Source: Chitinophagales bacterium
GTDB lineage: Bacteria > Bacteroidota > Bacteroidia > Chitinophagales > CAIODY01
NCBI GenBank assembly: GCA_947452995.1
Contig: CANGEV010000018.1
Span: 1-53,706, forward strand
Direction: 5' to 3'
DNA: 53,706 bases
Position numbers and translations under genes: made by a program. Within the stretch, counting starts at the first letter, position 1, and each line of letters begins with the position of its first letter. The notes under the pieces were generated by a model, which saw nothing but the letters and a program-made list of their open reading frames with translations, had not been told where the DNA came from and did no database searches. Below are positions 44,253-47,942 of the stretch, one piece after another.

Positions 44253-44642
44253 TTATTTTTTGAATTTATCAAGGAGCGATTTCATCATTTTGATGGTCTC
44301 ATCTTTTTCTTGAATCCGTGCATCCTTTTCTGCAAGGAGCTTTTCATACATCGCCTTCATCTCTTCATGCTGGTAGTCGTTTACTACGTTACCAACGTTT
44401 TTTACATTGTGATTATGATGCGTGGTATTGAAAATTTGTTTGTCGTTAAAGTCGATAATATCATTCAAGGCAACATCCATCACCTTTGAAAGTGACTGTA
44501 ACTGCTCGAATTTTATTTGAGTCTCGTTATTTTCTACCTTAATATAGAAAGAACGAGAAACGCCCAATTTCTTCGCGACATATTCCTGGGTCAGATTTTT
44601 CAATTCTCTGACCTTTCGGATATTATGACCAATATTGTGCAT
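44253..44642 (-). CDS. XRE-family transcriptional regulator with C-terminal coiled coil
   Basis: About 129 residues from the ATG at 44642 (MHNIGHNIRKVRELKN). The N-terminal ~65 residues are a Cro/C1-type HTH: RELKNLTQEYVAKKLGVSRSFYIKVENNE with FEQLQSLSKVMDVALNDII. The rest contains a polar linker (NTTHHNHNVKNVG) and a predicted coiled coil (YEKLLAEKDARIQEKDETIKMMKSLLDKFKK), likely for dimerisation. An in-frame ATG 33 nt upstream would add MYLRINNKSIY. Similar orphan HTH/coiled-coil regulators are common in Bacteroidota. It faces the long non-coding region holding the paired RNA-like elements and could bind there (inference). Confidence 0.85.
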   Translation of the reverse strand: MHNIGHNIRKVRELKNLTQEYVAKKLGVSRSFYIKVENNETQIKFEQLQSLSKVMDVALNDIIDFNDKQIFNTTHHNHNVKNVGNVVNDYQHEEMKAMYEKLLAEKDARIQEKDETIKMMKSLLDKFKK

Positions 44643-44709
44643 ATAAATCGACTTATTGTTTATACGAAGATACATAATGCAATTTAAATAATCTTCAATT
44701 CAGCTCAAC

Positions 44710-44741
44710 TTTGTATGACTCCTCAAAGCGAGTACATTTTG
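44710..44741 (+). promoter_or_regulatory. promoter of first RNA-like element
   Basis: TTTG (44710-44713), 19-bp spacer, then TACATTTTG (44733-44741), which fits the Bacteroidota promoter with one extra T in the -7 box. No open reading frame with coding character follows on the plus strand; the element at 44759 does. Confidence 0.55.
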
Positions 44742-44758
44742 TACTTAATTTGATACTT

Positions 44759-44832
44759 CAGTGTTAAAGTGTTTTTGTTTATAATCTTTAACCTGTTGAA
44801 AGTCCGACGCAAGTGGGACTTTATTATTTTTT
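44759..44832 (+). ncRNA. candidate small RNA, copy 1 of a duplicated element
   Basis: A 40-nt head (44759-44798) contains TTAAAG (44764-44769) able to pair with CTTTAA (44786-44791). It is followed by a terminator: AAAGTCC (44799-44805) pairs with GGACTTT (44816-44822), then a T-rich tract. The head is nearly identical to 45179-45218, but the terminator stem sequence is unrelated. With the promoter at 44710 the transcript would be ~85 nt. It is not a known family to me, and expression is inferred. Confidence 0.5.
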
Positions 44833-45178
44833 CTATAGATGTTACACATGAACTACAAAAAGAATAAATTTTGTTCAGTTCAATGCGTAACTGAACGCTT
44901 AGATACATTGTAAATGCTTTTAAGTAGTTTTTAATTGATGTTTATTGAAATGCTATATATCCACGAATAGTTTTAATGTGTTAGTTGTGTATATATAATA
45001 ATTATTCAGATGTTTTTTAATGGAGTCTATATTATATTGATTAATTAATAAGTAGTTGATGTATAGCTATTACAGAATCGTATACAATAAAAACAAAAAG
45101 TATTTATAGAGCGACAAATTGTGAATTATTGTTTTTTTAAATAGGTATAGATTTGTACTAATCATTTAAGGAATGAGA
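44833..45178. other. AT-rich spacer between the two RNA-like elements
   Basis: About 345 bp of very AT-rich DNA without a convincing reading frame. An 8-bp inverted repeat (GTTCAGTT at 44873, AACTGAAC at 44889) and a -7-like box TAGATTTG at 45148-45155 are the only distinct sites. The latter could start a transcript through the second element into the gene at 45272; a well-spaced -33 box is not visible. Confidence 0.5.
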
Positions 45179-45246
45179 CAGTGTTAAAGTGTTTTTGTTT
45201 TAATCTTTAATGCTGTTGGGGTTCTATTTCGATAGAACCCCTTTTT
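45179..45246 (+). ncRNA. candidate small RNA or leader attenuator, copy 2 of a duplicated element
   Basis: The 40-nt head (45179-45218) repeats copy 1, including GTGTTAAAGTGTTTTTGTTT, the TAATCTTTAA block and CTGTTG. A strong terminator follows: GGGGTTCTAT (45218-45227) pairs with ATAGAACCCC (45232-45241) over a TTCG tetraloop, then TTTTT. It ends 25 nt before the ATG at 45272, so it may act as a premature terminator in that gene's leader or as an independent small RNA. Confidence 0.5.
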
Positions 45247-45271: not shown

Positions 45272-45775
45272 ATGAAAAAACTATTTCTCCTATTTTTTAC
45301 ATTAGTCATTCTAACATCTGCAAGGTCTCAGGTAATATTACGTTCAGGCTTTGCTATACCATTGGAGCTTTCTAGCTCTGTCTCTTCTAACTCTGCAATG
45401 CAAGGGCAACAGGTTGATCTTCGGGTTATTTACGATATTACTGTAGATGGTAAGACTGTAATTCCAGCAGGAACATTGGCAAAAGGTATTGTAAGACGTG
45501 TATCGAAAGCTAAAGGTGCTGGTCGCGCTGGTGTGATTGAATTGCAAGTTGAATCAATAACAATTAATGATCAGCAAATTGGTTTAACAAGTAACACTTT
45601 GTTGGTTGAAGGCGAAAATAAAAAGGCTCTCGCTTGGGGTCTTACCGGAGGTGGTTTTTTTGTTGTTGGACCTCTTTCTTTCTTCTTTTTACTAATAAAA
45701 GGAGAAAGTGCAGTTATTCAAGCAGGAACGAAATTAGATGCAACTTTAGTTAAAACTGTTAGCGTAAACCAATAA
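45272..45775 (+). CDS. exported protein of unknown function
   Basis: A 167-residue protein with signal peptide MKKLFLLFFTLVILTSARSQ. The mature part is beta-rich with a repeated idea: VDLRVIYDITVDGKTVIPAGTLAKGIVRRV and ESAVIQAGTKLDATLVKTV, both with a (P/A)AGT turn. A hydrophobic glycine-rich segment (ALAWGLTGGGFFVVGPLSFFFLLI) near residue 115-140 may be a membrane segment. No named family recognised. It lies behind the second RNA-like element and 5 bp before the next gene, so the two are an operon. Confidence 0.6.
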   Translation: MKKLFLLFFTLVILTSARSQVILRSGFAIPLELSSSVSSNSAMQGQQVDLRVIYDITVDGKTVIPAGTLAKGIVRRVSKAKGAGRAGVIELQVESITINDQQIGLTSNTLLVEGENKKALAWGLTGGGFFVVGPLSFFFLLIKGESAVIQAGTKLDATLVKTVSVNQ

Positions 45776-47566: not shown

Positions 47567-47605
47567 AATTAGCAAAACTTGCATTTTTTACAAGTTTTGC
47601 TAATT
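47567..47605. repeat. 15-bp perfect inverted repeat
   Basis: AATTAGCAAAACTTG (47567-47581) and CAAGTTTTGCTAATT (47591-47605) are perfect complements around a 9-nt T-rich loop. No T-run follows on the plus strand (CTTGCC), so it is not a standard terminator. Located between the terminator and the site array of the fic gene. Confidence 0.7.
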
Positions 47606-47702
47606 CTTGCCTTTCCAAAGTACAACGCCTATTACTAAATTTTCAGGCTTATGGCGCGCTGCAACTAGCAAATACTGTGCGCGTACACAATAACTATATG
47701 TG

Positions 47703-47942
47703 TTATAATGGAAAATATTTTCTATTTACAGTGTTATAGTGGAAAATTTTCGACCTTTTTCGAATATATGCGACTTTTAGTGGAAAAACTGAACAAATAA
47801 CTTCATCTCATTAATTATCATTGATTTAAGTTCACTTACAGCAATAGACAGAAGTCTTATAATGGAAAATATTTTCCCAAAATAGGTTTATAGTGGAAAA
47901 TTTACGCTAAACTTGTGATAAATCTGATAGATAATGGAAAAT
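47703..47942 (+). promoter_or_regulatory. array of six TTATARTGGAAAAT sites upstream of fic
   Basis: Sites start at 47703, 47734, 47775, 47857, 47888 and 47929. Four match the consensus exactly (47703 and 47857 with A, 47734 and 47888 with G at the R position). The sites at 47775 and 47929 diverge at the edges. Spacings are 31 and 41 bp within each triplet, and the triplets are 154 bp apart. The last site overlaps the fic start codon. All sites have the same orientation. Best explained as an operator array for a DNA-binding protein (inference). Confidence 0.75.

Follow-up and report, generated by a model that had tools for sequence, protein, structure and literature searches.

The targets of small RNAs (sRNAs) are known in few cases in the Bacteroidota. 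GibS of Bacteroides thetaiotaomicron (PMC7366714), an intergenic RNA of ~145 nt with an intrinsic terminator, pairs without Hfq through a single-stranded seed in its 5' portion, across the start regions of several Bacteroides mRNAs that lack a Shine-Dalgarno (SD) sequence. RteR (~90 nt) of the Bacteroides conjugative transposon CTnDOT (PMC7366714) is trans-encoded on a moving unit, and its target is the tra operon of the transposon that carries it. Rfp18 of Flavobacterium psychrophilum (PMC9723704) is another structured sRNA of the phylum for which pairing with mRNAs via a stem-loop is predicted. More generally, mRNAs of Bacteroidota have no classical SD sequence and are enriched in A upstream of the start codon (PMC7366714). 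In the literature on Chitinophagales we found no sRNA target and no relevant Chitinophaga sRNA paper, and nothing was found that links TM2 proteins with an sRNA.

The window (the whole stretch of 53,706 nt analysed, from a Chitinophagales genome) contains two plus-strand elements 420 bp apart, which we consider fairly probable, from their sequences, to be two genes of one ~85-nt trans-acting antisense sRNA repressing the translation initiation of a TM2-like gene. They can be likened to GibS by description, not by sequence: both are intergenic, end at an intrinsic terminator and have in the 5' portion an extended seed, predicted in the present case, directed at the start region of an SD-less mRNA, with no Hfq. 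However, the elements described here are shorter, their seed lies in a hairpin arm and loop rather than in a single-stranded 5' region, and they have one candidate target, matched perfectly over 18 nt, instead of several. The likeness to RteR, again one of description, concerns its size, its trans-encoded nature and its location on a moving unit, but the candidate target here is encoded elsewhere in the genome. Rfp18 differs in that its deletion lowers the mRNA of the tested targets, so that it acts positively, and in being conserved across its genus, beyond one species.

Two elements with a common head and different terminators

As stated in the original prediction, CAGTGTTAAAGTGTTTTTGTTT is identical at positions 44759–44780 and 45179–45200, the two copies share a 40-nt head, which continues with (T)ATAATCTTTAA as far as CTGTTG and in which they differ by a 1-nt indel, and each head runs directly into its own intrinsic terminator, the terminator sequences of copies 1 and 2 being different (Table 1). 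A search of the whole 2.54-Mb genome with a 21-mer, allowing up to 3 mismatches, identified only four places, corresponding to the two exact copies, one antisense site on another contig (C5) and one forward site with 3 mismatches. The head is not part of a longer repeat.

RNA folding yielded two successive hairpins per copy (copy 1: −21.0 kcal/mol, z −4.1; copy 2: −28.5 kcal/mol, z −6.9), and none of 200 shuffled sequences was equally stable. The terminator of copy 2 was listed in a terminator pattern scan, and folding revealed both terminators. A short inverted repeat (GTTCAGTT-caatgcgt-AACTGAAC), located between the elements at 44873–44896, may be an operator or a minus-strand terminator.

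The consensus deduced for the Bacteroides primary sigma factor is TAnnTTTG, with TTTG near −33 (PMC7366714). The consensus promoter originally assigned to a ~85-nt copy 1 transcript was roughly right, but it is one base off TAnnTTTG. The frequency of this arrangement in 380 kb of the genome is ~0.04 per kb. For copy 2, we found a predicted −7 box and no clear −33 box.

Table 1. Predicted features of the two elements, their neighbours and the candidate target (window coordinates unless a contig is given).
Feature	Position	Strand	Remarks
Xre-type HTH regulator gene	44253..44675	-	Pfam HTH_3 1.7e-14; divergent from copy 1
Predicted promoter, copy 1	44710..44740	+	TTTG(44710)-N19-TACATTTT(44733-44740); predicted start ~44747
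Copy 1, predicted ~85-nt sRNA	44747..44832	+	Start predicted from promoter, end from terminator
Head of copy 1	44759..44798	+	Stem, 16-nt U-rich loop, then CUGUUG
Head stem of copy 1	44763-44769 / 44786-44792		GUUAAAG / CUUUAAC; perfect 7-bp inverted repeat
Predicted seed of copy 1	44763..44780	+	Perfect 18-nt antisense match to TM2-like 5'UTR
Intrinsic terminator, copy 1	44799..44832	+	AAAGTCC...GGACTTT + ATTATTTTTT
Predicted -7 box, copy 2	45148..45155	+	TAGATTTG; predicted start ~45162
Copy 2, predicted ~85-nt sRNA or terminated leader	45162..45246	+	
Predicted seed of copy 2	45183..45200	+	Identical to copy 1 seed
Intrinsic terminator, copy 2	45218..45246	+	GGGGTTCTAT TTCG ATAGAACCCC + TTTTT
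Exported protein, no known family	45272..45775	+	First gene of accessory cluster; possibly reached by copy 2 read-through
Complementary stretch	G000:C5:118834-118851	antisense to head	18-nt perfect match

Conservation of the unit of Xre gene and predicted sRNA, and the place of the accessory cluster

A second species of the same genus (Chitinophagales MAG JAPJNH01, hereafter G002) also has copy 1, which there adjoins the same divergent Xre gene, encoding a protein 94% identical to that of the window. The G002 head is identical letter for letter through CTTTAA, TTTG-N19-TACATTTT is conserved with the same spacing and −7 box, and the terminator has changed yet still pairs; the folded G002 element has a z value of −6.1. 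Both sides have changed in 7 of the 10 terminator pairs among the three elements, with the changes supplied by copy 2 relative to the other two. The TTAAAG/CTTTAA stem of the head, which had been proposed for a check of covariation, is present, but it is invariant and therefore offers none, and all the covariation lies in the terminator. The seventh pair of the head repeat is not kept in G002 and copy 2 (CTTTAAG and CTTTAAT, respectively). The identical head, the retained promoter and the compensated terminator support the proposal that the two elements correspond to a selected small RNA with a conserved head and a free terminator.

The Xre gene and the sRNA form a unit with 86% DNA identity over 573 bp between G002 and this genome, and the homology reaches no further than the 3' end of the HTH gene on one side and that of the sRNA terminator on the other. 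The unit follows secA here, whereas the G002 secA (98% identical protein) has a different downstream neighbour, and the neighbours of the G002 unit are a TM2 gene and, as read by eye, an ABC-type ATP-binding gene. The Xre gene and the predicted sRNA have therefore changed location together. In Chitinophagales, the homologues of the window's Xre (L013–L021) are usually divergent to a gene with an exported-protein or lipoprotein start, which suggests a general pairing of this type of regulator with an exported-protein gene; the element was not found beside any of the other Xre homologues in the order.

No further copies were identified in the third genome of the genus, in 299 Chitinophagales genomes searched with a covariance model (R1) or in viral contigs, and a viral origin was rejected on the latter result. 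The head helix of R1 was one column out of register, with the three true elements still scoring 87–100 bits, and its matches elsewhere in the genus and the 299 genomes were generic terminators only, below 37 bits; the best of those outside (L063) was a tRNA followed by a terminator. A corrected model (R2), run on 0.69 Mb of sequence, scored the three elements at 103, 100 and 82 bits and no other match above 29 bits, and the order-wide scan rests on R1. The covariance scan proposed at the outset for Bacteroidota extends over the genus and 299 genomes of the order, and three elements were detected in this range. Rfam gave no family match for the window, and only chance matches to miRNA models, far below the cut-off, for this region. 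The form is therefore one that Rfam does not name, as had been supposed, but the kind of regulator is already known.

Downstream from copy 2, between 45272 and 47380, the window encodes exported proteins without Pfam families, in DNA with a GC content of 34%, versus 44% for secA. For the first gene, distant homologues are scattered over 7 other genomes of the 199 from the order, and the two other genomes of the genus have none. The low GC content and this distribution indicate that the cluster was probably acquired. A supposed TM2 homologue in the cluster (KLNQKSVDEQF stretch, 46821) was rejected, as there was no real match. Repeats of (T)ATAATGGAAAATATTTTC and TAGTGGAAAA at 47600–47940, before a Fic-domain gene at 47934, may be clustered binding sites.

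Copy 2 ends (45246) 25 nt upstream from the ATG at 45272, as first noted, with no −7 box seen in between, and it could accordingly be read as an attenuator, that is, a terminated 5' leader of the cluster with regulated read-through, copy 1 being a relic or a decoy. However, the minimum-energy and centroid folds contain no antiterminator alternative to the terminator, the head not being paired with the terminator stem, it is copy 1 that is conserved in the two species, standing alone in both and closely preceding no gene, and the 45272 gene is absent from G002. We thus consider an attenuator improbable and, of the two roles originally envisaged, small RNA or regulatory leader, the first is retained and that of cluster leader would be at most secondary.

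Complementarity to the leader of a TM2-like gene

The sequence GTTAAAGTGTTTTTGTTT occurs once more in the genome, in antisense orientation on contig C5, where it directly abuts the ATG start codon of a TM2-like gene. This gene encodes a 131-aa membrane protein with a Pfam TM2 score of 19.6 bits, below the cut-off of 27.9. A −7-like box (TATCTTAG) is located just upstream of the complementary stretch, which would therefore account for the predicted 5'UTR wholly or for the most part. In G002 too, the only other exact head match is antisense and flush with the ATG, and the 18-nt perfect match is kept by both partners. In two species, the conserved seed thus has a perfect complement of 18–19 nt in the translation-initiation region of a gene located elsewhere. 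TM2-domain paralogues are present in the genus (G000:C6:73544, G001:C68:4121 and G002:C46:951-1418), and none of their leaders contains the complementary 18 nt. A paralogue in G002 scores 49.3 bits against Pfam TM2.

The leader tests were carried out on a sample of this genome (454 kb, 332–333 leaders). The TM2-like leader matches the head over 19 nt and the runner-up among 333 leaders over 10 nt, and the longest match of 1000 shuffled heads to 332 leaders was 16 nt (2 shuffles). Extrapolation to 19 nt and the whole genome puts the probability of the TM2-like match arising by chance at about 1 in 1000 or lower, for a match that was noticed after the fact. In an unrestricted search of 0.45 Mb on both strands, 5 of 300 shuffles gave matches of 17–18 nt; such matches elsewhere are therefore not so rare, and the argument depends in large part on the match lying at the ATG. 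Duplex energy is less decisive, because the pairing is A-U rich: the head paired with its best leader gives −25.8, only modestly beyond the best values for shuffled heads (mean −23.1, lowest −29.0). Cofolding gave a net gain of about −13 to −17 kcal/mol, the 5' part of the seed sitting in the stem, which must open.

The leader is identical over the 30 nt above the ATG in G002 and this genome, and the distal upstream sequence has diverged. Over the last 25 bases, identity was 25/25 for the TM2-like leader and 7–20/25 for nine further orthologues whose distal upstream DNA has diverged to a similar degree (a small sample, compared ungapped). The leader is nearly kept in a third species (CAAACAAAAAATCACTTTAATATG), with one 2-nt insertion in the alignment and one change adjoining the ATG. 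A search for a counterpart sRNA in the genome of this species (89% complete) gave 15 matches. One is the leader itself, and the others do not rise above background, lie mostly inside long open frames and have no terminator. The leader may therefore also have a reason of its own for conservation, since the third species keeps it without a detectable antisense RNA.

The sRNA could be real and the TM2-like match a coincidence, the true target being recognized through another, shorter and imperfect pairing, since the A-rich leaders of the phylum invite chance pairing with a U-rich RNA and the energy test is weak. However, the lead over the second-ranked leader, the recurrence of the same perfect pair in G002 and its abutment on the start codon argue against this explanation, which we regard as unlikely. 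The most doubtful alternative is a DNA operator, with GTTAAAG...CTTTAAC as the site of the divergent Xre protein just 3' of the promoters that it would control, as the conserved adjoining Xre gene, the perfect inverted repeat of copy 1 and the divergence of homologous regulators from exported-protein genes in the order might suggest, but it leaves unexplained the letter-for-letter conservation of the U-rich loop and the terminators that follow at a constant distance. In addition, G002 and copy 2 do not keep the seventh pair of the repeat, and the C5 site has the seed but not the CTTTAA arm, as would be expected of RNA pairing more than of a palindromic operator common to these sites.

Proposed mechanism and significance

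In the antisense reading that we favour, each copy would be transcribed from its own promoter into an RNA made up of a head hairpin, in which the loop is long and U-rich, and then an intrinsic terminator. Pairing would be perfect between the hairpin's 5' arm and loop (GUUAAAGUGUUUUUGUUU) and AAACAAAAACACUUUAAC, which covers the short TM2-like 5'UTR, entirely or for the most part, up to the start codon. The TM2-like mRNA would be expected to start at or just 5' of AAACAAAAACAC. Pairing in the cell would cover the A-rich translation-initiation region, block ribosome binding and lower the amount of TM2-like protein; the seed would thus mask exactly the A-rich sequence found upstream of the start in Bacteroidota. 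Hfq (PF17209) was not detected in any of the three genomes of the genus, with control genomes giving matches, and a long perfect seed is therefore plausible. By analogy, we infer that the antisense sRNA would work like GibS. The divergent Xre protein may control its expression, and copy 2 may add dosage, or it may provide the accessory cluster with a terminated leader.

A wider and rather speculative reading, to which we give little credence, is that of a portable cassette of Xre and antisense sRNA that would move between genomic places and repress a resident membrane-protein gene in trans, without Hfq, by perfect pairing with almost all of its 5'UTR, copy 2 having been lent to the cluster as a terminated leader. 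If this were true, the TM2-like mRNA, the sRNA and the accessory cluster would be tied into one circuit.

Copy 1 is an example of a predicted sRNA that stays fixed to a regulator gene while their genomic place changes. Sequence alone suffices to name both partners and their exact predicted pairing, in a lineage where no Hfq was detected, and the pair would therefore be a clean test case for long-seed antisense control of SD-less translation.
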